NCBI GenBank assembly: GCA_910575585.1
Contig: CAJTGF010000037.1
Span: 1 to 52,058, forward strand
DNA from: Clostridiaceae bacterium
GTDB lineage: Bacteria; Bacillota; Clostridia; Lachnospirales; Lachnospiraceae
Reading direction: 5' to 3'
Length of the DNA stretch: 52,058 nt
Each line of letters opens with the position of its first letter. The stretch's first letter is position 1. A program made the translations under genes and the position numbers. Shown here in pieces: positions 25,625 through 43,882 of this stretch. The notes below the pieces were generated by a model. That model had not been told where the DNA came from. It did not search any database and was given only the letters and a program-made list of their open reading frames with translations.

Positions 25625-25859
25625 TCACCGTTGATCTCTTCCTCATATCTTAGACCATTCCGGAAGATAGGACAAAAAATAAACGGTATCGCCACTGATC
25701 CTGCCGTGACAAACGCCGCTTTTCTCTCCACTATTATAATACCATACAAGCCTTACGAATACAAGACTGTTTCTGCATACGGATCTGTGATACACTACCA
25801 TGGCAATGTTTCAGCAGACTATGTTCTTTCGCTTTTATAAGGAGGTCGCAGCAGTTATT

Positions 25860-28056: not shown

Positions 28057-28821
28057 TTACATGGCAATTCCACATTCAAAGGCAAGCACCATATATTTTT
28101 CCGCGTTGGTAAGACCGTAAGACATCAAATCCCTGATCTCCCATGTTTCCGAACTAAGGTCATCTGCTCCATATAAAAATTGAATAAAGGGAATGTGTCG
28201 GTATTTTGAAACTGCCAACATAGAAGCACATTCCATTTCTACAGCAAGACAGCCTTCTTGGCGGCGCTCTTCAATGGCGGAGAGCGTTTCTCTGTAGATC
28301 GCGTCCGATGTCCATGTTTTGCCTTTGACATAAGAGTAACCACAATCTGTCAATATTTTTTCTAATAGTTCAACGGCGCGGGCGTCTGCTCCGATCTCCG
28401 GCGAAGGCGCCAGATAGTGATAACTGGTACCTTCGTCGCGGACGGCAGAGACAGGAATGATTATGCTGTCTTTTACTTTATCACTGTCCAAGACTCCGCA
28501 GGAACCAAACAAAACAAACTTTTTAGCTCCCATAGCAACGATCTCCTCAAAACAGCAAACACACGCAGGCGCGCCTACCATGGAACGATAAAAAGCGATG
28601 GCCGTATTCTTGTAATAGATCCGATAGACCGGCACTGTGCCGTTTGCCGAGCAAAGCTCTGCTATTTTTTCAACGTTGTCCAAAGAAGAAAATTTTCGGA
28701 TGATATTGTCAGAAAATGTGGAAACGCATATTTCAGGAAAATCCGCTATTCTTTTGGTGGTGTCGGAGGGGCTGAACAAGGTTGGTTCTGAAATTTCCGT
28801 TCTTTGAAAGATTGTATGCAA
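28057..28821 (-). CDS. Nucleoside phosphorylase
   Basis: A PNP/UDP-phosphorylase-family protein of 254 aa. FGSCGVLDSDKVKDSIIIP and AVEMECASMLAVSKYRHIPF are family motifs; the latter has the purine- or uridine-binding Glu-Met-Glu pattern. It cleaves a nucleoside with phosphate; purine versus uridine preference is not certain. A TTG start at 28821 is chosen: GAGGTG lies six bases upstream and the alignment to relatives begins there. The open frame continues 44 codons farther to an ATG that is actually the start of an ABC permease remnant, so a longer annotation would be a chimera. Confidence 0.85.
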   Translation of the reverse strand: MHTIFQRTEISEPTLFSPSDTTKRIADFPEICVSTFSDNIIRKFSSLDNVEKIAELCSANGTVPVYRIYYKNTAIAFYRSMVGAPACVCCFEEIVAMGAKKFVLFGSCGVLDSDKVKDSIIIPVSAVRDEGTSYHYLAPSPEIGADARAVELLEKILTDCGYSYVKGKTWTSDAIYRETLSAIEERRQEGCLAVEMECASMLAVSKYRHIPFIQFLYGADDLSSETWEIRDLMSYGLTNAEKYMVLAFECGIAM

Positions 28822-28902
28822 TTTATACACCTCATTTCTATGGATTTTGGGGATATGTTTTAACGTAAGCGCTTTGTTTGATTCTATCACATTGGGACAT
28901 AT

Positions 28903-28953
28903 TTGTATATTCAATTTCAATTCATTTTTCAAAAGTATCCAAAATGATCTCAT
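28903..28953 (-). pseudogene. ABC-2 permease remnant (first about 17 codons)
   Basis: ATG overlaps the ATPase stop by 4 bp, and the opening MRSFWILLKNELKLNI is characteristic of ABC-2 permeases; after that similarity ends and sequence leads into the nucleoside phosphorylase. The rest of the permease is deleted. Confidence 0.6.
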
Positions 28954-29297
28954 TCGTTCTCTCCCTCCTCGCCGGAAAGCATAAGATAAGCATCCTCAAA
29001 TGTTTCGCGCCTACCGGCTTGCTTTGCCTGTTCAACCGTTCCGAAAAATACGGCTTTCCCTTTTCTCAAAATACAGGTTTCGTCACACAGGGCTTCTACT
29101 TCGTCCATAAAGTGAGAAATTAAAACCATAGTCAATCCTTTGCTTTTTAATTCTGATAAAATTTTCCAGACATCGCGCCGGGCTTTTGTATCAAGTCCCG
29201 TAGTCAATTCATCAAGGAATACCAGTTCCGGGTTTAGGATTACGGCAAGCACGATAAATAACCGTTGACGCTCCCCGCCGGATAAACCGGAACTTTA
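28950..29297 (-). pseudogene. Truncated ABC exporter ATPase
   Basis: The C-terminal half of an ABC ATPase: signature GLSGGERQRL, Walker B LVFLDELTTGLD, and switch region LISHFMDEVEAL. Walker A and all N-terminal sequence are missing. The frame closes with a stop just upstream of the signature (about 29298), where repeat-derived sequence begins. The 4-bp overlap with a permease start is the remains of a normal exporter operon. Not expected to be functional. Confidence 0.85.
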
Positions 29298-30708: not shown

Positions 30709-31644
30709 TCATTCATCAAACAGCCCCGCGGACAGATACCGGTCCCCGGTATCCGGCAGCAGCGTCACTATCACCTTCCCCTCATTCTCCTCCCTTTTAG
30801 CCAGTTCCAAAGCCGCCCAGGCCGCAGCTCCCGACGAGATCCCCACAAGCACGCCCTCGCTTCTGGCCATCAGCCTTGCTGTGGCAAAAGCGTCCTCATC
30901 GGACACGGTCATCACCTCATCATAGATCTTTGTGTTCAGCACATCGGGCACAAACCCGGCTCCGATCCCCTGGAGCCCATGGCTCCCTCCGCTGCCCCCG
31001 GAAAGCACCGGGGATCCTTTAGGCTCCACGGCCACCACTTTCACCGAAGGCTTTTTCCCTTTCAGATACTCACCGGTTCCCGTGATGGTCCCTCCGGTTC
31101 CCACGCCGGCCACAAAGATATCCACGGCTCCCTTCGTATCCTCATAGATCTCCGGCCCTGTAGTCAGGCGGTGGGCCGCCGGATTGGCAGGATTCACAAA
31201 CTGTCCCGCAACAAGGCTGTGAGGGATCTCTGCCGCCAGCTCCCCGGCCTTCTCAATAGCCCCTTTCATGCCCTTGGCCCCATCGGTCAACACCAGCTCA
31301 GCCCCGTAAGCCTTCATCAGCTGACGCCGCTCCACGGACATGGTGTCCGGCATGACAATGATCATCCGGTATCCCCGGATCGCCGCAACCGCCGCAAGGC
31401 CAATTCCCGTATTGCCGGAAGTCGGTTCAATGATCACAGACCCCGGCTTTAACTGCCCAGACGCCTCCGCCTGGTCGATCATAGACTTTGCCACCCGGTC
31501 CTTCACGGAACCTGCAGGGTTTCGATACTCCAGTTTTGCAAGGACTTTAGCTTTCAGGCCAAGCCTTTCTTCTATGCGGGTCAACTCCAGCAGCGGTGTT
31601 TTCCCGATCAATTGATCCGCGGATGTGTAGATACCAGACATCAT
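30709..31644 (-). CDS. cysK: Cysteine synthase (O-acetylserine sulfhydrylase)
   Basis: PLP enzyme forming cysteine from O-acetylserine and sulfide. [15 protein letters not shown] contains the PLP-binding Lys, [14 protein letters not shown] binds substrate, [15 protein letters not shown] holds the PLP phosphate, and [11 protein letters not shown] is the C-terminal motif. At 311 aa it is full length. Although on the same strand as the large catabolic operon upstream, it has its own consensus promoter and terminator, so it is probably a separate unit. No T-box or other leader is evident. Confidence 0.96.
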
Positions 31645-31726: not shown

Positions 31727-33721
31727 TCACCGATCCATATGACGTCCTTCCCGAAAATCCCTCCACACATTCTCAAAAAACTCCTCTGCCCCCGGCAGCG
31801 GACGGACGGGACGCCAGGTAAACAAAACCTCCCTTTCCCCTAATTCCGCCTCCTGCACCAGATCCGTGCCGCCGTCCTCCTCCAGGCAGAACGCAAATTC
31901 ATCCGGAAGGCAGTCCGCCGGCTTTTGCCCCGAAGGGTCCGTGTATAAAGCGCTTCCCCGGCTCTTGCCGTTTCGCTCCCCATAATCTTTCATAGCCGCC
32001 AAATAGACATACTGGCTTATGAGAATGTCCCGCAGGCGAAACACCTGCCATAATTCCTTTGGCCCCTGGATGGCCACCGTCTGAAACAATCCATCCAGCT
32101 CTCCTTTCACCTGCTCCAGCGCAGCCGCGATCTTAGCCCCGTTTCGGATGGCGCCGCCGCACAGGCTCATCCGCCGGGCCGCTCTTTTCCACAGCCGGCC
32201 GGCGCTTATCCGCGGTTCCCCTTCCTTGTCCGCCGGACTATCCGGCGGCTCCAGCGCATGGTCCGACAGGGCCTTCATCTCCTCAACCGCCTTTTCGGCC
32301 AGCTTTGCAAACACATCCTGATCTCCCGGACCATCCTGTCTTCGGGCGGCAATATACTGCGCCGCCCGAACAGAGCCCACCTGACCGGCATTAAGGGCGC
32401 TGCCGCCGGGACGGTATACGCCGTGGCTGGCACTTACCTCCCCCACCGCGAAAAATCCCTCAATATTCGTCTGCCACCACTTATCAACAGACAATCCCCC
32501 GTTGTTATGCTGGGTACACAAGGTAATCTCCAAAGGCTGTGTCTCCAGATCCACTCCCCGCTCCCGATAAAACTCCACCGCCGGAAGGTTCATATGTTTA
32601 AGACGCTCAAAAGGCGTTTCAAAAAAAGCGCCGGCCCGGCTTAGATACTCCTTTGCCTCACTGCCAAGACGCCCCGGGTCCAAAGCTCCCCGGCAGGGAT
32701 TTCGCCGGTAATCCAGAAAAACTCTCCTGCCTTTCTCCCGCTCTCTGTACACCAGAATATCAATAACGGAACTTCCCCCCATAACCTTTCGCGCGTCAAA
32801 GGGCCACTGATACCCTTTCAAAAATATCAGGTCCATCATATCATAAGGGTCATCAAAAAAGTCTGCCAGAAACTCCCGCTCATCACCGCCCTTTTCATCC
32901 GTCGAATAAAATCTGGGCAAAACCTGCATATAAGTTCCGGAAACATTCCACCTTGGTCTCACAGACGCCATCCCATACTGCCACTCTGTTAAGTTCTTTC
33001 CCTTAACCCCCGCCTCAAAGGCCAGGCCGCTGGCTCCATAATGCCCTGCCGGATACACGCAGTCCGCGTACATCCCTGCCGGACCTCCTGTAGCATAGAT
33101 CACGTTTTCACAGCGAAACAGGACGAATCGGTCTCTCTGGCTGTGGGCGCAGGTCAGATCCAGGCAGAGAAGTCCGTAAACCCTTTTTTTATCGGACAGC
33201 ACATCGATGACCTGCATCCGGTCGAATATCCGTATCCCTTTTTGACGGACCGACTCCTCAAGACGCTCCGTCATATACCTGGAAGTATATGGCCCCGCGC
33301 TGGTGGCCCGGCGCCTGGGATCATGGTCCGTCTTATATCCCACATACTCCCCAAAACCGTTATGGGGAAATGGCACCCCCAGCTCCACCAGCCTGAAAAA
33401 ACACCTGGCAGACAGCGCCGCCTCACACAGCGCCAGATCGCCGTCCACGCACCGGCCCGAAAACAAGGTCTTTGCCATCTCCTCCACGCTGTCCGGTTCC
33501 CCGCCTGCCATCGTAAGCTTATAATAGGTCTGCTTATCAGAACCGGTATTGCGGGAAGTTCCCCCTTTTACGTGATCCGTGACCATGGCAATATCCTGCT
33601 GCCCCAGGGACCAAAGCCGATCCGCCGCGTTAAATCCTGCTGCCCCTGTGCCTACGATCACCGTATTCACCTGATAAAGCCGTACCTGACCGCCAAACCG
33701 CTCCCCGCCCATATCAGGCAT
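31727..33721 (-). CDS. Cytosolic FAD-dependent reductase of the fumarate-reductase / AprA-like family
   Basis: A 664-aa flavoprotein from the chosen start. VNTVIVGTGAAGFNAADRL is the FAD-binding fold, TSRNTGSDKQTYYKL and THNNGGLSVDKWWQTNIEG-like text (CTQHNNGGLSVDKW) are family segments, and VGEVSASHGVYRPGGSALN closes the FAD site. There is no signal peptide, so it works inside the cell, unlike the exported flavin reductase at 17.5 kb. The family includes fumarate reductases, enoate-type reductases and AprA. The start at 33721 overlaps the stop of the epimerase-like gene by 8 bp with AGAGAGG upstream, so they are coupled. Last gene of the operon. Confidence 0.85.
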   Translation of the reverse strand: MPDMGGERFGGQVRLYQVNTVIVGTGAAGFNAADRLWSLGQQDIAMVTDHVKGGTSRNTGSDKQTYYKLTMAGGEPDSVEEMAKTLFSGRCVDGDLALCEAALSARCFFRLVELGVPFPHNGFGEYVGYKTDHDPRRRATSAGPYTSRYMTERLEESVRQKGIRIFDRMQVIDVLSDKKRVYGLLCLDLTCAHSQRDRFVLFRCENVIYATGGPAGMYADCVYPAGHYGASGLAFEAGVKGKNLTEWQYGMASVRPRWNVSGTYMQVLPRFYSTDEKGGDEREFLADFFDDPYDMMDLIFLKGYQWPFDARKVMGGSSVIDILVYREREKGRRVFLDYRRNPCRGALDPGRLGSEAKEYLSRAGAFFETPFERLKHMNLPAVEFYRERGVDLETQPLEITLCTQHNNGGLSVDKWWQTNIEGFFAVGEVSASHGVYRPGGSALNAGQVGSVRAAQYIAARRQDGPGDQDVFAKLAEKAVEEMKALSDHALEPPDSPADKEGEPRISAGRLWKRAARRMSLCGGAIRNGAKIAAALEQVKGELDGLFQTVAIQGPKELWQVFRLRDILISQYVYLAAMKDYGERNGKSRGSALYTDPSGQKPADCLPDEFAFCLEEDGGTDLVQEAELGEREVLFTWRPVRPLPGAEEFFENVWRDFREGRHMDR

Positions 33722-34562
33722 CTGCCTCTCTAAACAGAGAACGCAAATAGGCAAGCCCTCTTTTGGCCTCCTTATCCCGGTCAGATCCGCACTGCCACGG
33801 CGCGTCCAGACCGCCCTGACAAAACAGCTCCATGGTCCAATGTCCCCCATAGCCCCATTGTTTCAGGATTCCCGTCAGGCTGACCCAGTCGATATGCCCG
33901 CTCCCCGGCGCCTGCCGGTCATTTTCACAGGCGTGGAAATGTACCAGTTTTCCCTGTTGCGCCGCCATCTGCAGCGCGCCGGCCATATCCGCCTCCTCAA
34001 TGTTGGCCTGATAGGTATCATACAAAAGGCCCACATTGTCCATGCCGATAGCTTCCACCATCCTCATGCCCTGCTCCACGGTGTTGACCATGCTGGTGCG
34101 GTAGCGGTTAATCGGTTCAATGCCCAGAGTCAGTCCGTTCTCCTTAGCCTTTGCGGCAATCTCCTTTAGGCCCTCCACCGCGTAGTCCCACTCCAGCTTC
34201 TTTTCCTCTTCTGTCAGATGATGGCGTTTGCCTCCGCCGCTGTACACAGGGCCTGCCAGCGCCTTTGCCCCCAGGATTCCTCCGATCCTGCAGCACCGAA
34301 GCAGGTATTCCCTGGCATTTTCCCGTTCCTCACCCTTAAAACTGCTGATATCCCTGCCCGACGGCAGGCTGGCGCACATGGTTATCTCCAGGTCTTTTTC
34401 CCTCGCCAGCTGCCCCACCTTTTCCCAGCATACCCCGTCCAGGTCTGTCATAGGCAGTTCCACCGCTCCAAATCCCATATCCGCCGCCCGGGATATCCAT
34501 GTTTCATATTCCCTTAACGGCTCATTGCTCCAATTCCACAAATTTATGCCGATCCGATTCAT
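33714..34562 (-). CDS. Ketose 3-epimerase-like TIM-barrel protein
   Basis: A xylose-isomerase-like TIM barrel of 282 aa. Putative metal ligands are Glu 149 (LGIEPINRYRT), Asp 182 (LLYDTYQANIEE), His 208 (LVHFHACEND) and Glu 245 (WTMELF), matching the pattern of D-tagatose/D-psicose 3-epimerases. 3-dehydroshikimate dehydratases and other enzymes also share this fold, so the reaction is open. The start at 34562 follows AGAGGAGA; the preceding LacI-family gene overlaps it by 41 bp. Role inferred as isomerisation or dehydration of a pathway intermediate. Confidence 0.8.
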   Translation of the reverse strand: MNRIGINLWNWSNEPLREYETWISRAADMGFGAVELPMTDLDGVCWEKVGQLAREKDLEITMCASLPSGRDISSFKGEERENAREYLLRCCRIGGILGAKALAGPVYSGGGKRHHLTEEEKKLEWDYAVEGLKEIAAKAKENGLTLGIEPINRYRTSMVNTVEQGMRMVEAIGMDNVGLLYDTYQANIEEADMAGALQMAAQQGKLVHFHACENDRQAPGSGHIDWVSLTGILKQWGYGGHWTMELFCQGGLDAPWQCGSDRDKEAKRGLAYLRSLFREADA

Positions 34563-35580
34563 TTTGTCTCCTCTTTCTCGTAGTCCCTCTGACAATAAGC
34601 TTGACATCCAGGATATCCACCGTAGGCTCCATCAGCTTTCCGGTTTTCTCCTTGTGCTTGATCTGCGCGATCAGCTTTTTGGCCGCAAGCTCTCCCATCT
34701 CCGTCAGAGGCTGGGCCACCGTAGACAGCGGAGGATCTATGATGGAGCTGAACTCCACATCATCAATCCCCACAATGGAAACATCCCCCGGAATGTCCTT
34801 TCCCATATCCCGCAGCGCCCTCATGAGCATAAATGCCTTGGGATCGGAGCTGGCTACGATGGCTTCAATATCCGGTATCCGTTCAAACAGTTTCCGGGTC
34901 TGGCTGTACAGGGATATGGAATCATACAGCTCATACAGGACATACTCCTCGCGAAATTTCAGTCCATAATCTTCCAGCGCCTTTTTATATCCGGCCAGAC
35001 GCTGCTCATACAGACACAGCTTTGGATTGCCCATGACAAACACGATCTTTTGATGGCCTATTTCGATCTGATACTTCGTAGCCTCATATCCCGCCTTAAA
35101 ATTGTCCACCCCGATGGCGTCAATGGACTCATCATTATATCTTCCCGCCAGGACCACCGGGATCCCCTGATCCCGCAGTTCATTGATATAGGCCGTGTTT
35201 TTTGTCAATGTGGCAAAGATAAATCCGTCGATCCTCTGACCGGTCAAAAACTTGATATAATCCTGTTCCGCGCCGCAGTCCTCGCCTGTATTGCACAGCA
35301 CCGTAATATACCCGTTTTTGCGCATCACCTTTTCAACGCCCTGAGTGATCTTGGGAAAGATCATATTGCTAATGTCCGGTATCACCAGCGCAATGGTATT
35401 GCTCTTGTTGGATTTTAGACCTTTGGCAAACGCGTTGGGTGAATAATTAAGCCGGTGGGCTGCGTCCAAAACCCGCAGTCGTGTCTCGTCTTTCACATAC
35501 GTCGTTTCATTCAACGTCCTGGAAACCGTGCTCACTGACACGCCCGCTAACTTTGCAACCTCTCTGATCCCCATATCCAA
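34522..35580 (-). CDS. LacI family transcriptional regulator
   Basis: Residues about 4-55 are a LacI helix-turn-helix (REVAKLAGVSVSTVSRTLNE) and hinge (RLNYSPNAFAKGL). The remainder is a periplasmic-binding-protein fold (ALVIPDISNMIFPKITQGVE) for an effector. 352 aa. Located inside the operon it probably controls; the near-identical palindromes in both divergent promoters are its likely operators. The C-terminus overlaps the following gene. The effector is likely a pathway substrate, but unidentified. Confidence 0.92.
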   Translation of the reverse strand: MDMGIREVAKLAGVSVSTVSRTLNETTYVKDETRLRVLDAAHRLNYSPNAFAKGLKSNKSNTIALVIPDISNMIFPKITQGVEKVMRKNGYITVLCNTGEDCGAEQDYIKFLTGQRIDGFIFATLTKNTAYINELRDQGIPVVLAGRYNDESIDAIGVDNFKAGYEATKYQIEIGHQKIVFVMGNPKLCLYEQRLAGYKKALEDYGLKFREEYVLYELYDSISLYSQTRKLFERIPDIEAIVASSDPKAFMLMRALRDMGKDIPGDVSIVGIDDVEFSSIIDPPLSTVAQPLTEMGELAAKKLIAQIKHKEKTGKLMEPTVDILDVKLIVRGTTRKRRQNESDRHKFVELEQ

Positions 35581-35614
35581 TCACCTTTCTTCCTCATTAG
35601 TTTCCGAAACGCCG

Positions 35615-36382
35615 TTATAAGGTCTTAAGATGATATCCCCCGTCAACATCTATGTAATTTCCTGTGGTATATAAAAACTCGTCTCCAACCAAAACCGACA
35701 CGGCGTTCGCTACATCTTCCGGCTTTCCCCATCTGGCAATGGGAAAACGCCCCTCTTGAATCATTTTATCATACTTATCTTTCACCGCGCTAGTCATATT
35801 TGTTGAAATGATCCCCGGCCTTACTTCGTGGACAAAGATCCCTTCTCCCGCCAGCCGCTCCGCAAACAGCTTAGTGATCATGGATATCCCCGCCTTGGAA
35901 ATACAGTATTCCCCTCTGGTCCGGGAGACCACCTCCGCGGAGCAGGAAGAGATATTGATGATCGTTCCCCGCTTTTGGCCCACCGGCTCCTGGCGGCGCA
36001 TCTGCCTTACGACCGCCTGTGTAAAAAACAGCATGCCTTTTGTATTGATCCCCATGACTCGGTCGTAACTTTCTTCCGTCATCTCCAACAGATCCATCCT
36101 CTTTTGGGGCGCCACCCCGGCGTTATTCACCAGGACATGGACCGCCCCGAAATCCTCCACGATCCCAAGGACCGTCTCCTCTCTGGAGCCGTGATTTGCG
36201 ATATCACATTTATAATATTTATATTTGATTCCATACTGCCCCAGCTCCTTTATGGTCTCGCCGTAGCATGCCTGATCGCTGGAACCTAAGATGGCCGCGT
36301 TATACCCCTCTTTTGCCAGACGTCTGGATATGGCCCAGCCGATCCCTCTGCCTCCGCCTGTTATGATCGCTGTCTTATTCAT
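35615..36382 (-). CDS. Short-chain dehydrogenase/reductase (SDR)
   Basis: A classical SDR of 255 aa. GGGRGIGWAISRRLA is the NAD(P)-binding glycine motif, VNNAGVAP the NNAG structural motif, and ISSCSAEVVSRTRGEYCISK supplies catalytic Ser, Tyr and Lys. Closest in style to 3-oxoacyl reductases, so it plausibly oxidises or reduces a hydroxyl of a CoA-linked or free acid. 34 bp separate it from the LacI gene and 19 bp from livF. Confidence 0.88.
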   Translation of the reverse strand: MNKTAIITGGGRGIGWAISRRLAKEGYNAAILGSSDQACYGETIKELGQYGIKYKYYKCDIANHGSREETVLGIVEDFGAVHVLVNNAGVAPQKRMDLLEMTEESYDRVMGINTKGMLFFTQAVVRQMRRQEPVGQKRGTIINISSCSAEVVSRTRGEYCISKAGISMITKLFAERLAGEGIFVHEVRPGIISTNMTSAVKDKYDKMIQEGRFPIARWGKPEDVANAVSVLVGDEFLYTTGNYIDVDGGYHLKTL

Positions 36383-36401
36383 CCTCTCTCCTATCTGCTA
36401 T

Positions 36402-37097
36402 CTACTGCACTCCCAGGTACGCTCTTTGTACCCCTTCGTCCTTCATAAGCGCCTGGGACTCCCCTTCCATCTTGACTCTTCCGTTTTCCAACACATAGGT
36501 ATAGTCGCTTAATCCCATGGCCTGCCGTGCATTCTGCTCGATCAGAAGGACCGTGATGCCGCTTTCATTGATCTTTTTGATAAACTTAAACACCTGCTTT
36601 ACCACAATAGGAGCAAGGCCCATAGACGGCTCGTCCAGCATGATCAGCTGGGGGCCTGACATCATAGCCCGTCCCAATGCCAGCATCTGCTGTTCCCCTC
36701 CCGACAGCGTTCCGCCCTGCTGCTTCTTCCGCTCCCTAAGCACCGGGAACAGCTGATAGATCTCCTCGGAACGCCTGGGAAACTCCGCCTTATTGATCGT
36801 GCCTATAATGAGATTTTCCTCCACCGTCAGTCCCGCAAAGATCTTTCTCCCCTCCGGCACCTGAACGATCCCTTCCTGCACGATCCGGTGAGGTTTTGTC
36901 ATAAGAGGCCGTCCTTTAAAAGAAATCTGGCCTTTCTGGTACTTAACTGCCCCGGACACCGCATTAAGCAGCGACGTCTTTCCTGCCCCGTTGGAACCGA
37001 TCACGCTGACAATCTTCCCTTCCTCCACCTGGATGGACACGTCCTGCAGCGCCGTCACATGTCTGTAATTTACAGATACACAATCCACTTTCAGCAT
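36402..37097 (-). CDS. livF: Branched-chain amino-acid-type ABC transporter ATPase LivF
   Basis: An ATPase of the HAAT (Liv) family, 231 aa from the chosen start. Walker A GSNGAGKTSL, signature LSGGEQQMLALGRAM, Walker B LIMLDEPSMGLAP. The start at 37097 lies one base after the livG stop with GGGGGAGGA upstream; a longer upstream frame overlaps livG. The family imports branched-chain amino acids but also aromatic and other carboxylic acids; context favours the latter. Confidence 0.93.
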   Translation of the reverse strand: MLKVDCVSVNYRHVTALQDVSIQVEEGKIVSVIGSNGAGKTSLLNAVSGAVKYQKGQISFKGRPLMTKPHRIVQEGIVQVPEGRKIFAGLTVEENLIIGTINKAEFPRRSEEIYQLFPVLRERKKQQGGTLSGGEQQMLALGRAMMSGPQLIMLDEPSMGLAPIVVKQVFKFIKKINESGITVLLIEQNARQAMGLSDYTYVLENGRVKMEGESQALMKDEGVQRAYLGVQ

Positions 37098-37098
37098 C

Positions 37099-37863
37099 TT
37101 AATCGTCCTCCCCCATATACGCAGCCACCACATCGCGATTCTCAATGATCTCCCGGGAAGTCCCATGGGCTAAAAGCTGACCAAAATTCAGCACATAGAT
37201 CATATCAGACAGGGTATGGACCACCTGAAGCCGATGTTCGATCAACAATATGCTGATATGGAAAGTCTCTTTGATCTTATGGATCAGCCTAATAAACTCT
37301 TCAACCTCCGTGGGATTCAGTCCCGCCGCCGGCTCATCCAGCAAAAGCAGCTTTGGCTCCGACGCCAGAGCCCTGGCCAGTTCCACTTTTCTCTGCATCC
37401 CGTAGGGGAGACTTCCCGGCTTATCCTGCCCGTTTTTTTCCAATCCCACCAATCTTAGATATTCCAGGCTCTTCTCCCTGTTTTCCCTGTCGATCCTCCG
37501 CTTTTTAGGCGTCGTCATGATGGAATCGAGCAGATTATATGTTGCCCGGGCATCCATGGCGCTTTGGACATTTTCCAGGATACTCAGCTGATTGAACAGG
37601 CGGATATTTTGAAAGGTTCTGGATATCCCCAGCAAGGAGATCTGATGCTGCTTTAAACCGGTTATATCCTGGCCGTCAAACAAGATCTGGCCTGACGTAG
37701 GCGCGTACACCCCGGAAATAAGGTTAAAAAAGGTTGTCTTGCCCGCCCCGTTAGGTCCGATAATACTGGTTATGCTGTCTGTCTTTACCGATAATGATAC
37801 ATCCTGAACTGCCTTAACACCGCCGAAACGGATGGACAGCTCTTTTACTTCAAGAATATTCAT
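37099..37863 (-). CDS. livG: Branched-chain amino-acid-type ABC transporter ATPase LivG
   Basis: 254 aa. Walker A GPNGAGKT at 36-43, signature region SLPYGMQRKVELARALA, Walker B LLLLDEPAAGLNP. The start overlaps the livM stop by 4 bp. Pairs with LivF beneath the LivH-LivM channel. Confidence 0.95.
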   Translation of the reverse strand: MNILEVKELSIRFGGVKAVQDVSLSVKTDSITSIIGPNGAGKTTFFNLISGVYAPTSGQILFDGQDITGLKQHQISLLGISRTFQNIRLFNQLSILENVQSAMDARATYNLLDSIMTTPKKRRIDRENREKSLEYLRLVGLEKNGQDKPGSLPYGMQRKVELARALASEPKLLLLDEPAAGLNPTEVEEFIRLIHKIKETFHISILLIEHRLQVVHTLSDMIYVLNFGQLLAHGTSREIIENRDVVAAYMGEDD

Positions 37864-38729
37864 AAATTCCCCCGTTTTCTGTTTTTGGCAGCTTTCCTTA
37901 TGGCTGCGATCGCATCTGTAAACTCATGTTCCCCAAACAATCCGTTAGGCAGAAAATTGACTACCAGCAGCACGATGGCGCACTGGGCAATGATCCGGTA
38001 CATATCCGCAAATCGAAGGATCTCCGGAAGCGTGCAGAAGATCATCCCCGACAGCAGGGTCCCCGTCAGGCTGTTTACGCCGCCTACAAAGACAAAGCTG
38101 ATCCAGTCAATGGACTTTGTGAAACCAAACGCCGTAGGTTCCACATAGGTGGTGGTGTAAGCCAGCAAGCTTCCGGCCAGGGCGGTGATGCCGCTGGCAA
38201 AGACGAACGCGGTCAGTTTGACCCGGGCCACGTTAATGCCCATGGCTGCCGCCGACAATTCATCGTTTTTCACGGCAATGCAGTACCTTCCGTACTTGGA
38301 CCGCTTAAAATTCATGGTGATCACAAGGATCAGCGCCAGTATAATCACCCCCAGCCACAATGTCATCTTTCTTGGGATATTGTTGATCCCGTTGGCGCCG
38401 CCCGTAATATTACTCATATTATTTAACAGGGCAACAATGGCCTCTCCAAACCCCATGGTAATCATGGCAATGTAATCCCTGCGCAGCTTTACAACGGGAA
38501 ACCCTACCAGCAGCGCGCATACCATGCCTGCCAAAATAGATAAGACCACGATCACCGCCATCGGCAGATGAGAATGGATGGCCAGCATGCCTGTGGCATA
38601 GGCACCCACGCACATAAAAGCCGCCTGCCCCATGGAAAAGATCCCTGTGAGCCCCATAAGCGTATACATAGAAAGGATCGCGATAATATTAACGATCGCT
38701 GAAGTCATAACAGCGCTATAATAACTCAT
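37860..38729 (-). CDS. livM: ABC transporter permease LivM
   Basis: A 289-aa inner-membrane permease with about eight hydrophobic segments; FSMGQAAFMCVGAYATG near residue 31 and the cytoplasmic EAA-like AVKNDELSAAAMGINVARVK at about 180 are typical of LivM. Start preceded by GGTGGAGAC. The channel partner is LivH, encoded immediately upstream. Confidence 0.94.
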   Translation of the reverse strand: MSYYSAVMTSAIVNIIAILSMYTLMGLTGIFSMGQAAFMCVGAYATGMLAIHSHLPMAVIVVLSILAGMVCALLVGFPVVKLRRDYIAMITMGFGEAIVALLNNMSNITGGANGINNIPRKMTLWLGVIILALILVITMNFKRSKYGRYCIAVKNDELSAAAMGINVARVKLTAFVFASGITALAGSLLAYTTTYVEPTAFGFTKSIDWISFVFVGGVNSLTGTLLSGMIFCTLPEILRFADMYRIIAQCAIVLLVVNFLPNGLFGEHEFTDAIAAIRKAAKNRKRGNL

Positions 38730-38759
38730 TTTGTCTCCACCTTCTTCCTGTGTGAGTGA

Positions 38760-39635
38760 TCAAACTTTGTCCAGGACATATTTCCCCGCGATTCCCTGGG
38801 GCCTTACCAGCAAAAAGATCATGGAAAATACGAAGGAAAATACTGGCACCAGCCCGGCGCCAAACGCGTTATTAAAACACACCTCCAAAACTCCCAGCAT
38901 GATCCCTCCGTACAACGCTCCCGATATATTGCCAAGACCGCCTAAGATGGACGCGATCATTCCCTTAAACACCAGCTGGTTTAACTGGGGATATAAAATA
39001 TAGTTGACGCCGCAGAAAATCCCTGCCACCGCCGCCAAAGCTCCCGAAACCATAAAAGTCAGCGCCACCACAACCGACACATTGATGCCCATAAGCTTAA
39101 CCGTATCCCCGTCCATGGACAGCGCCCGGATGGCGATGCCCAGACGTGTCCGATACAAAAGAAACATAAGCCCAAGGATCACCACCGCCGATATCCCCAG
39201 CATGATCATGTCGGATACGGAAAAAGTAAACCCGTTGACATCGATGAAAGGCGGTGTGAAAAATGCCGGATACGCGTAATATGTACTGGAAAATGTGATC
39301 ACAATAATATTTTGCAGCAAGATCCCAAGGGTAGAGGAAGATACAAAAAACAGCATGATGTTGCTGCGTTTCGCCCGCAGATTTTCAAACCCTATATACT
39401 GGACAATGCATGCCAGAACCGCCCCGAAGGCCGCGGTGATCAGCATCATCATGCCAAAATTCAAGTTATACCTGCGCTGGATGACATAGGCAAAATACGC
39501 GCAGACTACCATAATGCCGCCGTGTGAAAAATTGGAAAATTTCAAGATACTGTAGATCAGGGTAAACCCCAGTGCGATTATGGCGTAAATTGCTCCCAGG
39601 GAAAGGCCGTTTAATAGCATTTGAAAATAATACAT
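38760..39635 (-). CDS. livH: ABC transporter permease LivH
   Basis: 291 aa from the chosen start. LSLGAIYAIIALGFTLIYS and LKFSNFSHGG in the first 40 residues are diagnostic of LivH, and ALSMDGDTVKLMGINVS is the ATPase-contact loop. The start at 39635 (opening MYYFQMLLNG) has AAAGGA upstream and matches family N-termini; ATGs farther up are less likely. Confidence 0.93.
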   Translation of the reverse strand: MYYFQMLLNGLSLGAIYAIIALGFTLIYSILKFSNFSHGGIMVVCAYFAYVIQRRYNLNFGMMMLITAAFGAVLACIVQYIGFENLRAKRSNIMLFFVSSSTLGILLQNIIVITFSSTYYAYPAFFTPPFIDVNGFTFSVSDMIMLGISAVVILGLMFLLYRTRLGIAIRALSMDGDTVKLMGINVSVVVALTFMVSGALAAVAGIFCGVNYILYPQLNQLVFKGMIASILGGLGNISGALYGGIMLGVLEVCFNNAFGAGLVPVFSFVFSMIFLLVRPQGIAGKYVLDKV

Positions 39636-39712
39636 AAACCGTTCCATCCTTTCTTGCGAAATCCATGTTTCCAGGAGCCGCGCCACATGACGGCGGCTCC
39701 TGCGCCGTTTCC

Positions 39713-40939
39713 TTAATCCTCCGGCAAAAAGTATCCCATATTAGAAAGCTTTCCGTTTTCGATCTTGCACATAACCATGCCCAGCTCCAGGGGAGAATGG
39801 GTCTTGGGATCCTGGCTGTAATCATCGGATACCAGAAGATCCAAGCCGGAAATCTCATTTTCCAGCGCGTTCTTAATGGCCTCCGGGTCATCAGAACCTG
39901 CTTTTTCGATGGCTGCTTTCAAAATATACATGGCGTCATATCCGTTGACCGACTTAACAATAGGGTCCTCCCCGTATGCCTCCTGGTACGCCTTAAAAAA
40001 CGGCTGTATTTTTTCATCCTGCATCCAGCACACCATCTGGAAATAAGCCAGCGACAAACTTTCCGGATCGTTGAGAAGGCTTAAAAACGGATCTGCCATA
40101 TCCATAGCGCCCATGTAAGGGATATCCAGGCCGGACTGGACCGCCTGCTGCACCATCATCACCAGCTGGGACGGCATATTGGGACAGTATATAAACTCGG
40201 CTCCGCTGTTTTTGATCTTATTTAACTGGGTCTTATAATCCTGGTCATTGGAATTGCAGGTCTCCACAATGACCACTTCCCCGATGTCCTCCCAGATCTC
40301 AATAAATGCCTGGCTGTTGGTCACCGTGTAGGCGTTGGACTGGTCATAAAACACCGCCGCCTTTCTCAGATCCGTATTGGCCTCAATGTACTTTGCCATA
40401 ATATTGGCCTGCTGGGGCGCGTTAGGCTGATCTACCAGAAACATGTAGGGATAAACCTCCTGGGTATCCGGATTCATTACCGCCCGCGGATCTGACGGCA
40501 TTCCCATTAGCGGGATCTTTTTTTGATTGCTGATCTCCACCAGAGACAGACAGATGGAGCTGGCGTCCGATGTAATCACCGCGCTGGCCTTGTCCAGATC
40601 TGCCAGCCTTGTGTAGCCGTTGATGGATTCCTGGGAATCATTTTTGTTGTCATAAGTGATCAGCTTAATCTGTTTTCCCAGGATACCGCCGGCTGCATTG
40701 ATCTCCTCTACGGCAAGTTTCACGCCGTTATTAATGGCGTTTCCGTTAACCGAGCGGTTTCCCGACAGATCGTTGACGCTGCCGATCACAATGTAATCTC
40801 CCGAATCTCCTGCCGCCTGTGTCCCTGTTCCCTGATCGTTACCGCTGTTTCCTGCCGCGCACCCGCAGATGGAAACCATCATCAATGCCGCTGCCACCCC
40901 TAATCTCCATCTCTTTCTCTTCTTGTTGGTCATCTTCAT
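39713..40939 (-). CDS. Liv-type substrate-binding lipoprotein
   Basis: A periplasmic-binding-type lipoprotein of 408 aa: signal peptide with lipobox VSICGC (Cys about 27), then a type I fold (IVIGSVNDLSGNRSVNG, LAVEEINAAGGILGKQIKL). It captures the substrate outside the membrane for LivH/M/F/G. Ligand specificity cannot be read from the sequence; the operon suggests a carboxylic acid. The ATG at 40939 overlaps the CoA-transferase stop by one base (TGATG) with GGGGAGGG upstream, hence coupled. Confidence 0.92.
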   Translation of the reverse strand: MKMTNKKRKRWRLGVAAALMMVSICGCAAGNSGNDQGTGTQAAGDSGDYIVIGSVNDLSGNRSVNGNAINNGVKLAVEEINAAGGILGKQIKLITYDNKNDSQESINGYTRLADLDKASAVITSDASSICLSLVEISNQKKIPLMGMPSDPRAVMNPDTQEVYPYMFLVDQPNAPQQANIMAKYIEANTDLRKAAVFYDQSNAYTVTNSQAFIEIWEDIGEVVIVETCNSNDQDYKTQLNKIKNSGAEFIYCPNMPSQLVMMVQQAVQSGLDIPYMGAMDMADPFLSLLNDPESLSLAYFQMVCWMQDEKIQPFFKAYQEAYGEDPIVKSVNGYDAMYILKAAIEKAGSDDPEAIKNALENEISGLDLLVSDDYSQDPKTHSPLELGMVMCKIENGKLSNMGYFLPED

Positions 40940-42126
40940 CAAAATATGCCCTCCCCTTTTAATTCATTGATCTTCTCGTCCGAGTAACCCAGTTCCCTCA
41001 ATATCTCCTCATTATGTTCTCCCAGCAAAGGCGGAGCCATACGGATCTCTGCCGGCGTTTTTGAAAAACCGATGGGACAGTTTACTACTTTGATCTGTCC
41101 TGCCACGGGATGGGAGATCGTGCGGATCATCTCATTGTAGATAACCTGGGGGTCCTTTACCACCTGGTCATAATCATTGACCCGCCCGCACCATATCCCT
41201 GCCTTCTGCAGCCGGCCGATCCAGTGATCCGTCTCTTTCTTACTAAGGGCCTCCTGCAGCACGTCATAGATCTTATCTCTGTCCCGGAACATTACCTCTT
41301 TATCCGGCATGATTGATTCCAGGTTTTCAATGCCAAGCACATGTCCCAGATCCCCAACCTTATCCTTATCCACCACTGACAAGCACAGATACCCGTCCTT
41401 GGTGGCATAAATACCGTATGGAGCCCAGCTTTGTACTTGTCCGGAAAAGTTCTTAGGTCTTTCCGGTTTTCTCCCTGTGTTCATATAATGGGTCAGTTCC
41501 TGACACTGCAGATGCAGGGCTGAATTTAACAGGCTGACCTCCACTTCCTGGGACTGGCCGCCGCGGTCCCGACTGACCAGCGCTGCCAGGATGCCCACCG
41601 TAAGCATTCCCGCGCTGTACATATCTGCCAGAAATGTGCCTCCTGTCTGGGGCGGTCCGTCTTTTCCCACCAGATAGGCATATCCGCTTAGGCACTGCGC
41701 CATCAGATCCTGACCGGGCAGTTTTTCATAAGGCCCCTTCCTTCCATACCCTACCGCGTGGGCGTAAATGATCCGGGGATTTAACTTCTTTGCTTCCTCA
41801 TATCCAAATCCCAGCTTATCCAACACCCCCGGCCTGAAATTAGAGACGATCACATCCGTATTGCGGATCAGATCCCTGACCACATCCTTGGCCTTTTCCT
41901 GCTTCATATCCAGCGTCATGCTTCTCTTATTGCGGTTCATTGCCAGGAAAAACGGACTTTCACCGTTTAAACACGCTTCCTTATACTGACTTCTGTTAAA
42001 GTCTCCGCTTCCCGGCCTCTCAATATTGATCACATCCGCTCCCAGATCCCCCAAGGTCTGCAGCGCAAAGGGAGCCTGCGCAAAATGTGTAAATCCCAGT
42101 ATCTTAATCCCGTTTAATGGTCCCAT
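40939..42126 (-). CDS. CaiB/BaiF family CoA-transferase
   Basis: A class III CoA-transferase of 395 aa that moves CoA between carboxylic acids. FLADMYSAGMLTVGILAAL places the catalytic Asp at 168, close to the position in formyl-CoA transferase. LGADVINIERPGSGDF and SNFRPGVLDKLGFGYE are further family motifs. In this operon it would activate the imported acid as a CoA thioester without ATP. It is the second gene, 11 bp after the MaoC-type gene. Confidence 0.93.
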   Translation of the reverse strand: MGPLNGIKILGFTHFAQAPFALQTLGDLGADVINIERPGSGDFNRSQYKEACLNGESPFFLAMNRNKRSMTLDMKQEKAKDVVRDLIRNTDVIVSNFRPGVLDKLGFGYEEAKKLNPRIIYAHAVGYGRKGPYEKLPGQDLMAQCLSGYAYLVGKDGPPQTGGTFLADMYSAGMLTVGILAALVSRDRGGQSQEVEVSLLNSALHLQCQELTHYMNTGRKPERPKNFSGQVQSWAPYGIYATKDGYLCLSVVDKDKVGDLGHVLGIENLESIMPDKEVMFRDRDKIYDVLQEALSKKETDHWIGRLQKAGIWCGRVNDYDQVVKDPQVIYNEMIRTISHPVAGQIKVVNCPIGFSKTPAEIRMAPPLLGEHNEEILRELGYSDEKINELKGEGIF

Positions 42127-42137
42127 TGATCGTCACC

Positions 42138-42605
42138 TCACTCCTGTTTATCATTTGCAGATCTTCGTCCAATATACTGTTTGTCGATGTGGAACAGCAC
42201 TACTTCACCCTTTTGGTTCACCACGTTTACGTTCCATGTCACCACGCCAAACTGCTCATTCTTCTCATACTTATCAATGACTTCCGTTTCGCAGTGGATG
42301 CTGTCGCCCGGATAGACCGGTCTGATGTAGCGCACTTTATCATGTCCGTAATGAACGGTAGGCACTTTGCTGGGTCCGATCTCCCTGGCCATAAATCCGT
42401 CCGCCACCCCAAGGGTAAGGACCCCCTGAACGATGCAGCCGCTGATCGCCGGGTGGCGCTTACAATACTCCTCATCCACATGAACCGGATGGGTGTTATC
42501 GGAACATCCAATAAATAGACGGATATCCGCCTCCGTCATAGTCCTGGAAGACGTAACCTGCTTTTCCCCAATTTTGTAGTCCTCAAAATACTTAAAATCT
42601 GGCAT
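42138..42605 (-). CDS. MaoC-type (R)-hydratase/dehydratase, hot-dog fold
   Basis: 155 aa from the chosen start. GCSDNTHPVHVDEEY carries the Asp and His of the (R)-enoyl-CoA hydratase site (family pattern D-x-N-P-x-H), then SGCIVQGVLTLGVADGF and YPGDSIHCETEVIDK complete the hot-dog motif. It probably hydrates or dehydrates a CoA-linked intermediate. The start at 42605 follows AAAGGAGAAGAT; an in-frame upstream ATG at 42653 abuts the operator. First gene of the operon. Confidence 0.88.
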   Translation of the reverse strand: MPDFKYFEDYKIGEKQVTSSRTMTEADIRLFIGCSDNTHPVHVDEEYCKRHPAISGCIVQGVLTLGVADGFMAREIGPSKVPTVHYGHDKVRYIRPVYPGDSIHCETEVIDKYEKNEQFGVVTWNVNVVNQKGEVVLFHIDKQYIGRRSANDKQE

Positions 42606-42653
42606 ATCTTCTCCTTTCGCCAAAACATGATCCACGGGTTTCTTACTATTCAA

Positions 42654-42665
42654 GAAAACGTTTTC
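42654..42665. promoter_or_regulatory. Operator 1 of the divergent cluster (LacI-type, also fits cre)
   Basis: Perfect palindrome GAAAACGTTTTC. With flanks, AAGAAAACGTTTTCATAAA is nearly identical to operator 2. It lies about 40 bp downstream of the transcription start of the catabolic operon. It also satisfies the CcpA cre consensus, so carbon-catabolite control is possible. Confidence 0.65.
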
Positions 42666-42709
42666 ATAAAATAGCTAATTTTTTAAGGTGTTTTTACCTC
42701 TTTTGTATT

Positions 42710-42738
42710 AAATTACTATATTTTTTGCTTTTTGTCAA
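42710..42738 (-). promoter_or_regulatory. Promoter of the 11-gene operon
   Basis: Minus strand TTGACA (42733-42738), 17 bp, TAATTT (42710-42715). A near-palindrome, ATGAAATCGACTTCAT (42756-42771), lies upstream and could be a third operator. The 419-bp divergent gap (42606-43024) contains no gene. Confidence 0.6.
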
Positions 42739-42945
42739 CAGATTTATGAATTTTTATGAAATCGACTTCATTATTTTGCTGGTTTATCTAGGATAAATGC
42801 CGTAAAATCCTGATATTTCCCATATTTTTCCTATATTTTTTCTTTCATTTCATGAAAACGAACTGCAAATATGAAACATATGTCACAGATATGCCTTGTG
42901 AATTTCCATGAAATCCTCTTATTTTTGTATTTGTTTATTTGCATA

Positions 42946-42974
42946 TTGACGAGATCACCGATTTATGGTATTAA
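42946..42974 (+). promoter_or_regulatory. Promoter of the shikimate-dehydrogenase-like gene
   Basis: TTGACG (42946-42951), 17 bp, TATTAA (42969-42974). Operator 2 lies immediately downstream, so repressor binding would block initiation. Confidence 0.6.
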
Positions 42975-42982
42975 ATATCTAA

Positions 42983-42994
42983 GAAAACATTTTC
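42983..42994. promoter_or_regulatory. Operator 2 of the divergent cluster
   Basis: GAAAACATTTTC, one change from operator 1, with the same flanks (AAG before, ATAAA after). Covers about +2 to +13 of the shikimate-dehydrogenase-like transcript. Confidence 0.65.
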
Positions 42995-43024
42995 ATAAAA
43001 AATACATAGAACAAAGGAGACGTT

Positions 43025-43882
43025 ATGGAACATCTATTGGATTCTCAAACTGCTTTATACGGCATCCTGGGCGATCCCGTGTCCCACTGCAGGTCCACCG
43101 TCATGCACAACATGGCCTTTAGCTGCCTGGGCAAAAACGCCGTTTTTCTCGCGTTTTTATGTAATTCCCAGAACATAGCTGAAGTTTTCCAGGCAATTCG
43201 CGCCCTGGATATTAAGGGAGGCAGCATCACTATGCCCGTCAAAAAGCTGGCCATGCCCTTTATGGATTTTATTTCTGAGGAAGCCAGGCTCATTGGCTCC
43301 ATCAATGTCTTTAAAAATGTCAACGGCCGTCTGGAAGGATACAATACAGACGGGCTTGGCGTGGTCCGCTTTCTCCAAAACAAACACATCCCCTTTTCGG
43401 AGAAAACCGTTCTGGCAGGAGCAGGCGGAGCCGGGCGGTCTATCGGTTTCCAACTGGCTTTCCACGGCGCTAAACAGCTGATCATCTGCGACAAAGATCT
43501 GGCTTTGGCCCAGTCATTGGCAGACGCTGTCAACCAGTCCGTTGCCGGCTGTGACGCCAAAGCCTCCCTGGCGGAAGAATCTATACTGTTAAAAGAACTT
43601 GAGGATTCCACTCTCTTCATTGACGCCACACCTTTGGGCATGCCTCCCCTAACGGACCACAGCCTCCTTAACTCCTTTTTAAGTATTCCCAGCCATGTAA
43701 CATTTTTGGATATCTGCTATGAACCTTCCGAGACAAAACTGCTGCGCCTGGCAAGGCAAAACGGCTTCCAGGCTCATAACGGCATCGGTATGCTCCTTCA
43801 TCAGGGCGCGGAAGCGTTTCGTATCTGGACCGGCCAGGAGTTTCCTTTCGAGTATGTAGAAAAAAGAATGGATGCGATCTAA
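43025..43882 (+). CDS. Shikimate-dehydrogenase-family oxidoreductase with altered substrate site
   Basis: An AroE-fold protein of 285 aa. The catalytic Lys 73 and Asp 109 are kept (ITMPVKK, GYNTDGLG), as are the NADP(H) loop GAGGAGRSIGF and the C-terminal MLLHQGAEAFRIWTG. However, the shikimate-binding motif HSxSP reads HCRST (21-25), so the first Ser is Cys and the Pro is Thr, and the family's NVTxPxK is SITMPVK, replacing Asn. It is controlled with a catabolic operon rather than with aromatic biosynthesis, so I infer a degradative paralogue for shikimate, quinate or a related polyol acid. AAAGGAGACG precedes the start. Confidence 0.88.
   Translation: MEHLLDSQTALYGILGDPVSHCRSTVMHNMAFSCLGKNAVFLAFLCNSQNIAEVFQAIRALDIKGGSITMPVKKLAMPFMDFISEEARLIGSINVFKNVNGRLEGYNTDGLGVVRFLQNKHIPFSEKTVLAGAGGAGRSIGFQLAFHGAKQLIICDKDLALAQSLADAVNQSVAGCDAKASLAEESILLKELEDSTLFIDATPLGMPPLTDHSLLNSFLSIPSHVTFLDICYEPSETKLLRLARQNGFQAHNGIGMLLHQGAEAFRIWTGQEFPFEYVEKRMDAI

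Follow-up and report, generated by a model that had tools for sequence, protein, structure and literature searches.

A regulated operon joining a Liv-type importer and CoA-linked enzymes to a fumarate-reductase-type flavoprotein: a possible route for carbohydrate-derived acids in a Clostridiaceae bacterium

Which substrate is served by an operon that joins a Liv-type importer to a CoA-transferase, a MaoC-fold protein, a short-chain dehydrogenase/reductase (SDR) and a relative of fumarate reductase? The question is raised by positions 31727..43882 of a 52,058-nt stretch of a Clostridiaceae bacterium (GCA_910575585.1, contig CAJTGF010000037.1), hereafter called the window, for which a first-pass annotation had proposed acid import, a CoA step and redox chemistry under LacI control, with shikimate or quinate as the leading candidates. 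We tentatively favour another substrate, at somewhat less than even chances: the LacI-controlled operon would import and dissimilate a carbohydrate-derived polyhydroxy carboxylic acid (an aldonate, a uronate or a close cyclic relative). Of greater interest than this guess at the substrate is the widespread pairing of the SDR with the flavoprotein, often with an Old Yellow Enzyme (OYE)-like protein alongside. Neither this pairing nor the gene combination of the operon was found described in the full text of open-licence papers.

Eleven minus-strand genes stand consecutively and are transcribed in the order MaoC, CaiB, Liv-type substrate-binding protein (SBP), LivH, LivM, LivG, LivF, SDR, LacI, AP_endonuc_2 TIM barrel and FAD_binding_2 flavoprotein, and an AroE-like gene diverges from MaoC across an AT-rich region of 422 bp. 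Several of the open reading frames (ORFs) as first listed start too early. With ATG starts at better-placed ribosome sites, at 42605 (MaoC), 40939 (SBP), about 39635 (LivH), 37097 (LivF), 35574 (LacI), 34562 (TIM barrel) and 33712 or 33721 (flavoprotein), the junctions are short or overlapping; the overlap of the formerly listed flavoprotein ORF (31727-33850) with the TIM-barrel gene arose because its start had been placed too early. Pfam families and sequence bear out, coordinates included, the tight eleven-gene set and divergent AroE-like gene that had been claimed here; the Pfam scan covered all operon genes except LivM, LivG and LivF, for which sequence, together with similarity and a matching gene order at related loci, supplied the names. 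The grouping is more than chance, because nine of the genes recur together in a second genome and because the divergent promoter region holds a pair of nearly identical operator-like sites.

These two sites are the near-palindrome AAGAAAACGTTTTCAT (42652..42667), upstream of MaoC, and a second copy, AAGAAAACATTTTCAT (42981..42996), upstream of the AroE-like gene. The pattern AAGAAAACRTTTTCAT has exactly two perfect matches in the assembly of 6,126,376 bases, one in each divergent promoter; two further matches elsewhere appear when one mismatch is allowed, and a reversed control pattern gave none. The core TGAAAAYGTTTTC, at up to one mismatch, has four matches in the window (two of them a single site read on both strands) versus a mean of 0.18 in shuffled sequences. 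On the simplest reading, each divergent promoter carries one putative operator for the LacI-family regulator of the operon (34522..35574, minus strand; PF00356 with Peripla_BP_1/3), a type of regulator that mostly senses sugars. Since the putative operator stands in both promoters, the AroE-like gene probably belongs to the LacI regulon, and its suspected link to the operon is strengthened accordingly. The sites also resemble catabolite-repression elements, so that CcpA-type control may be an alternative.

The grouping does recur in another species. At locus L048 of Ruminococcaceae bacterium OttesenSCG-928-D13 (Oscillospiraceae), nine of the eleven operon genes stand together at 52-79% identity (MaoC 79, CaiB 63, SBP 64, LivH 75, LivM 67, LivG 70, LivF 66, flavoprotein 56 and LacI 52%); inspection by eye found no obvious copy of the operator-like site upstream of them. 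Searches of this genome, whose assembly is possibly incomplete, for the AroE-like protein at E ≤ 1e-10 and for the SDR at E ≤ 1e-40 found nothing; the AroE-like protein was matched in the three other genomes searched with it. The minimal conserved set would thus consist of importer, CaiB, MaoC, flavoprotein and regulator. As the flavoproteins of the window and L048 are not sisters in a tree of 126 rows, the two gene sets may have been assembled or exchanged separately. Conservation of the gene order across Lachnospiraceae, by contrast with recurrence in a second species, did not hold up: among 299 family genomes CaiB had a match at E ≤ 1e-90 only in the window's own, so that the full operon is no conserved trait of the family. 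Across 391 class genomes, CaiB matched in 15 at E ≤ 1e-70 (own included; no other above 40% identity) and the SBP in 3 at E ≤ 1e-60 (own included). Both non-self SBP matches adjoin Liv genes, an SDR and the flavoprotein, and the importer subfamily is therefore tied to the SDR-flavoprotein pair.

The flavoprotein (31727..33712, or from 33721, minus strand; PF00890, E 7e-22) is far more widely distributed. It was matched in 8 of 200 family genomes at E ≤ 1e-20 and in 52 of 391 class genomes at E ≤ 1e-150, own included in each case, and a scan of genome contigs returned at least 572 relatives, of which the best 80 were kept, with records from Spirochaetota, Actinomycetota and Halanaerobium. A total of 139 flavoprotein loci were annotated (8 from the family search, 80 from the contig scan, 2 via the SBP and 49 from the class search); removal of 9 near-copies left 130 distinct loci, which were compared with 40 control regions of 19 kb taken from seven flavoprotein-bearing genomes only. 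The counts that follow rest on labels given by best BLAST matches above 80 bits to reference proteins partly drawn from the same loci, on ORF calling that is crude in GC-rich genomes, and on loci that are phylogenetically related. An SDR was present in 106/130 loci versus 2/40 controls, and stood directly upstream on the same strand in 103/130. The OYE-like flavin enzyme occurred in 86/130 loci versus 0/40 controls and within the next two upstream genes in 72/130, giving OYE, SDR and flavoprotein in a row. This row recalls the contiguous equol genes orf3-orf2-orf1, which encode (PMC4381290) an NADH:flavin oxidoreductase, an SDR and a succinate-dehydrogenase-like protein; as daidzein, dihydrodaidzein and tetrahydrodaidzein reductases, they reduce a C=C bond, then a ketone, and finally remove a hydroxyl. 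The comparison is one of enzyme classes, not of sequence homology to the equol flavoprotein, and the window differs in that it has no OYE match and thus no complete trio, and the loci studied here differ in their surroundings of carboxylate importers, LacI and sugar-acid genes.

Sugar-acid genes are indeed recurrent neighbours. At least one of UxaA, UxaC, UxaE, 2-keto-3-deoxygluconate (KDG) kinase and IlvD was found in 37/130 loci versus 0/40 controls (Fisher p 1.1e-5, for loci that are not independent), with UxaC in 15, KDG kinase in 13 and IlvD in 11 loci and in no control. A 2-hydroxyacid dehydrogenase (24/130), a second AP_endonuc_2 protein (21/130) and LivF (16/130) were likewise absent from all 40 controls; no enrichment was seen near the flavoprotein for the LivG label (25/130 versus 9/40), GH28 (5 versus 2) or GH43 (5 versus 1). 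Halanaerobium loci combine the flavoprotein with UxaE, UxaC and UxaA, to which H. congolense adds a TctABC transporter, and in Cellulomonas the flavoprotein stands beside a UxaC match. An IolM-like Zn dehydrogenase is present in related loci, and the transporters near other family members are of carboxylate types (DctM with a TAXI-type binding protein, TctABC, Asp-Al_Ex). In the tree, which comprised the window and 125 of the 130 loci (five with proteins below 600 residues were left out), the window flavoprotein is sister to L015 (68% identical, SH-aLRT 99), and the next rows by path are L025, L024 and L027. As the loci of these four nearest flavoproteins all carry Liv genes and IlvD, the window seems to belong with a Liv group of sugar-acid type, though without IlvD, OYE and Zn-alcohol dehydrogenase and with CaiB and MaoC. 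Thirteen loci have at least three Liv genes; IlvD occurs in 8 of them, and CaiB with MaoC in L048 alone.

What the proteins themselves suggest was assessed from residues and model scores. The flavoprotein, a soluble protein, belongs to the FrdA/SdhA/AspO superfamily (PF00890, 78.6 bits versus a cut-off of 20.4), and its best NCBIfam score is 85.6 bits versus a cut-off of 452.75. Foldseek placed its AlphaFold model closest to E. coli FrdA (6awf_A, E 2.1e-17); the model, built from a 9-sequence alignment, has a mean predicted local distance difference test score (pLDDT) of 66.8, with low values in the conserved active-site stretches, for which it was therefore not used. Enzymes of the FrdA type reduce C=C bonds beside carboxylates. 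His232, His355 and Arg390, the dicarboxylate-binding residues of E. coli FrdA, align with Gly246, Gln400 and Arg433, and these equivalents are kept in 125, 126 and 126 of the 126 rows; catalytic Arg287 could not be placed in the alignment. With Arg390 kept and both histidines replaced, one carboxylate anchor is retained and the classic dicarboxylate site is lost, which speaks against a fumarate reductase proper. Likeness to fumarate reductase, succinate dehydrogenase and L-aspartate oxidase thus extends to the fold, the FAD_binding_2 domain and the invariant arginine, and ends at the two histidines and at the lack of an adjoining Fe-S or membrane subunit. The SDR (35615..36382, minus strand; PF00106/PF13561, NF009386 316.9 bits versus a cut-off of 250) has the Asn-Ser-Tyr-Lys tetrad, and across 101 flavoprotein-adjacent SDRs, window included, Ser was kept in 101, Tyr in 100 and Lys in 101.

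The importer reproduces the five-part SBP-LivH-LivM-LivG-LivF architecture of the E. coli Liv system, with the SBP, a lipoprotein, at 39713..40939 (Peripla_BP_6, PF13458, E 8.8e-52), LivH at 38760..39635 or from 39647 (BPD_transp_2, PF02653, E 4.5e-35), LivM at 37860..38729, LivG at 37099..37863 and LivF at 36402..37097, all on the minus strand. It differs from that system in its scores, LivH reaching 125.9 bits against a model cut-off of 379, and in its ligand pocket. In LivJ, Glu226 binds the amine and aromatic residues hold the side chain of the ligand. When seven SBPs were compared with E. coli LivJ and LivK, at a distance that makes the alignment uncertain, Glu226 was replaced by Met or Leu in 7/7, Phe276 by Lys in 7/7 and Ala100 by Arg in 5 of the 6 covering it. 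These changes suggest an anionic ligand. Import of branched-chain amino acids was accordingly rejected, with some doubt left by an adjacent Asp; the worry that the importer might be specific for them, which would have undercut the first-pass annotation, is probably unfounded.

CaiB (40939..42126, minus strand) is a class III CoA-transferase (PF02515, E 6.3e-108, 361.6 bits; CoA_transf_3) whose Asp140, in the motif GQDLMAQ, aligns with the nucleophilic Asp of 9br6, a succinate-HMG (hydroxymethylglutarate) CoA-transferase. The MaoC-fold protein (42138..42605, minus strand; PF01575, E 1.9e-19) is less conventional. Hydratases of the (R)-specific branch use an Asp-His dyad; alignment to 1q6w and 4ffu shows the His kept, Asn at the usual Asp position and an Asp one residue earlier, in the window and L048 alike, so the dyad is not intact. 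Because both known copies carry Asn there, simple dehydration by MaoC is in doubt. The TIM barrel (33714..34562, minus strand; PF01261, E 1.6e-40) has D-tagatose, L-ribulose and D-psicose 3-epimerases and TM_0416 as its best matches in the Protein Data Bank (PDB). Ketose 3-epimerases of this branch use a metal and catalytic set of two Glu, Asp and His plus an Arg, and all five (Glu, Asp, His, Glu, Arg) are visible by eye in the alignment to 7erm, placing the protein with these epimerases by residue. Its scores stay under the cut-offs of NF051856 (163 versus 300), of the keto-gluconate epimerase model IolO (131.9 versus 300 bits) and, by far, of QuiC (21.5 versus 1200 bits).

What can be read directly is the operon structure, the shared operator-like sites, the MaoC-CaiB-Liv-flavoprotein-LacI set in L048 and the place of the SDR and flavoprotein, in many loci with OYE, in a common family. 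A route built on these would begin with uptake of the acid by the Liv importer. The TIM barrel and the SDR and AroE-like dehydrogenases would then move, oxidise or reduce a hydroxyl or ketone, giving an intermediate of the alpha-hydroxyketone type, on which the flavoprotein may perform a C-C or C-O redox step; by the equol analogy, this would mean that a ring carbon loses its oxygen or that a C=C bond is saturated. CaiB would form a CoA thioester, and the MaoC-fold protein would act on it, this CoA branch apparently taking the place of the OYE, Zn-alcohol dehydrogenase and IlvD/EDD dehydratase of related loci. Flux could be oxidative or serve as an electron sink. Four dehydration-type modules accompany the SDR-flavoprotein pair, depending on the organism (IlvD/EDD, UxaA, glycyl radical enzymes and, in the window, CaiB with MaoC); together with the equol precedent, they suggest a scheme of dehydration and reduction acting on a polyhydroxy acid. 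Of the chemistry first proposed, the coupling of an importer to a CoA-transferase and a MaoC-fold protein stands, and the simple dehydration assigned to MaoC does not stand comfortably.

A carbohydrate-derived acid is supported by the sugar-acid markers in 37/130 loci, by IlvD at the four nearest relatives and by the closeness of the TIM barrel to ketose 3-epimerases and IolO. The altered SBP pocket, the LacI-type regulator, the OYE-SDR-flavoprotein core of related loci, the carboxylate-type transporters near other family members and the recurrence of nine genes in L048 count in its favour as well. Family loci share UxaA, UxaC, UxaE and KDG kinase with hexuronate pathways, and the TIM barrel matches IolO of the inositol-to-uronate (Iol) route; the operon differs in having no Uxa or KDG gene, and the textbook pathways offer no step for its flavoprotein or its CoA branch. 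Several points weigh against this substrate. No hexuronate, KDG or IlvD gene is among the operon genes, which by themselves thus make no hexuronate/KDG pathway; 93/130 loci have none of the five markers in the stretch covered, and the UxaA, UxaE, GH28 and GH43 labels are individually not enriched. OYE had no match at E ≤ 1e-10 in the window genome, an empty answer that alone proves little. Pairs of CoA-transferase and MaoC are commoner in acyl or dicarboxylate chemistry than in routes for sugar acids, and the catalytic Asp of MaoC is replaced by Asn. In 7/7 SBPs the residue right after the Glu226 position is an Asp, which could still hold an amine, and members of the flavoprotein family may differ in substrate.

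The AroE-like protein (43025..43882, plus strand; PF08501, Shikimate_dh_N, E 9.6e-20) is the reason for taking shikimate seriously. If it started a reductive or CoA-linked metabolism of imported shikimate, quinate or a similar hydroaromatic plant acid, the flavoprotein would reduce a ring C=C conjugated to the carboxylate, a proposal we consider unlikely. It can call on the operator-like site that the AroE-like gene shares with the operon, the anionic ligand suggested by the SBP pocket, the general ability of FrdA-type enzymes to reduce C=C bonds next to carboxylates, and two Oscillibacter genomes in which an AroE-like gene directly precedes SDR and flavoprotein, and genes for a DctM-type permease and two dehydratase-type glycyl radical enzymes come next. 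The protein also passes TIGR00507 (205.6 bits versus a cut-off of 200.2), with sixteen other listed shikimate and quinate models below their cut-offs. AroE and YdiB act through a catalytic Lys and Asp and bind the carboxylate with a pair of Ser. Here the Lys, the Asp, the second Ser and other pocket residues are kept; against the proposal, the first Ser has become Cys (all other rows of the alignment have Ser, save two with Thr), the N-T motif has become N-V, and the protein, 29% identical to the second AroE of its genome, forms a long branch outside the YdiB-like clade, weakly grouped (85/80) with Oscillibacter AroE-likes and one from Faecalispora encoded outside the flavoprotein locus. AroE-like genes are not enriched near the flavoprotein (2/130 versus 1/40), L048 keeps nine operon genes in a genome that matched neither the AroE-like protein nor the SDR, and the IlvD-type dehydratases of the nearest relatives do not fit quinate chemistry. 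The qui/qsu clusters for quinate and shikimate likewise combine a second AroE/YdiB-type dehydrogenase with an AP_endonuc_2-fold TIM barrel; they differ in that the operon proteins scanned gave no match to a 3-dehydroquinate or 3-dehydroshikimate dehydratase and the TIM barrel is far from QuiC, and the clusters are not known to have a CoA-transferase, MaoC or FrdA-type flavoprotein, all three of which the operon has. Shikimate or quinate, the substrate first put forward, is thus possible and less likely than a carbohydrate acid.

The CoA enzymes invite a different thought, a dicarboxylate or branched hydroxy-acid pathway of the mesaconate, citramalate or itaconate kind, in which CaiB would be a succinyl-CoA-dependent CoA-transferase, MaoC a hydratase and the flavoprotein a reductase of the methylsuccinate/mesaconate type. 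The best PDB match of CaiB, to succinate-hydroxymethylglutarate CoA-transferase, agrees with this, as do its 207.5 bits to succinyl-CoA:mesaconate CoA-transferase, the weak matches of MaoC to mesaconyl-CoA hydratase and beta-methylmalyl-CoA dehydratase, and the minimal set of importer, CaiB, MaoC, flavoprotein and regulator in L048. We hold it to be quite unlikely: all these CaiB and MaoC model matches are far under their cut-offs (700 in the case of CaiB), both FrdA histidines are replaced although Arg390 is kept, no citramalyl-CoA-type lyase is in the operon, and the epimerase-like TIM barrel and LacI would be left unexplained. We judge it very unlikely that the operon takes up and modifies an acid of steroid, isoflavone or another aromatic type, by analogy with the bai set, which includes CaiB, and the equol set with its OYE, SDR and succinate-dehydrogenase-like flavoprotein. 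In Halanaerobium the family flavoprotein has uronate genes next to it, and in Cellulomonas a UxaC match; OYE is unmatched in the window genome, and LacI and the ketose-epimerase-like gene do not fit. What speaks for the idea is that the OYE-SDR-flavoprotein core has the same three classes as the equol trio (PMC4381290).

Several other arrangements were seen around the flavoprotein. In Halanaerobium loci L047, L052, L053, L057 and L062 it lies inside uronate clusters (UxaA, UxaC, UxaE), and in L047, L052, L053 and L062 the first context listing gave no SDR or OYE label beside it, unlike most loci. The Oscillibacter loci (L045:146-13759 and L066:7911-21267) run AroE-like, SDR, flavoprotein, DctM-type permease, glycyl radical enzyme, activase and second glycyl radical enzyme; both glycyl radical enzymes of L045 match the PFL2/glycerol-dehydratase family, with no specific equivalog. 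URO-D/MtaA-like methyltransferase genes occur in or near the flavoprotein operon in L028, L029, L036, L063, L110 and L111; they suggested demethylation of an O-methyl-uronate, an idea that finds no support in the window, whose scanned genes include none of this kind. Variant operons at L018, L020, L022 and L060 (the last on the same contig as L018) hold an Amidohydro_2 protein, an AraC regulator, OYE, SDR, flavoprotein and a carboxylate-type permease. In L075, L080, L097 and similar loci from rumen and gut metagenome-assembled genomes, OYE-SDR-flavoprotein is followed by an AP_endonuc_2 protein and then by a protein of 561-563 residues with a weak Hepar_II_III_C match only and no NCBIfam match. 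The window genome itself has a partial second flavoprotein copy near a contig end (G000:C53:34691-35368, corresponding to L023:9692-10369), about 41% identical over 279 residues and with an in-frame stop, looking like a decayed paralogue.

Around the operon, cysK (30709-31644) lies downstream of the flavoprotein, and the AroE-like gene converges on a cluster of triose-phosphate isomerase, phosphoglycerate kinase and glyceraldehyde-3-phosphate dehydrogenase genes, named from their translations without a family scan. The GC content of the operon is 0.518 versus 0.509 for the rest of the window. Elsewhere in the window, 25800-28043 encodes a HelD-type RNA polymerase recycling motor (NF041464, 590.2 bits versus a cut-off of 419), and at 28057-29252 a nucleosidase-like gene overlaps a short, apparently truncated ABC-ATPase-like ORF of 100 aa.

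A bolder extension of the carbohydrate-acid reading, which we place on the unlikely side, would make the SDR-flavoprotein pair, usually with OYE, an undescribed anaerobic system for reductive dehydroxylation of ring or open-chain sugar acids, serving as an electron sink and fed by interchangeable dehydration modules (IlvD/EDD, altronate dehydratase, glycyl radical enzymes, or CoA-transferase with MaoC). The window would then hold a rare form of this system that is linked to CoA and in which an AroE paralogue was taken over for a sugar-like substrate. The operon is a compact, regulated unit, with one binding protein, one regulator with a defined putative operator and about six enzymes. Should the CoA branch be correct, it would join sugar-acid to acyl-CoA chemistry in an unusual way. 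The family flavoprotein is present in 52 of the 391 class genomes, and its reaction would supply a missing piece in the use of plant-derived acids by anaerobes.

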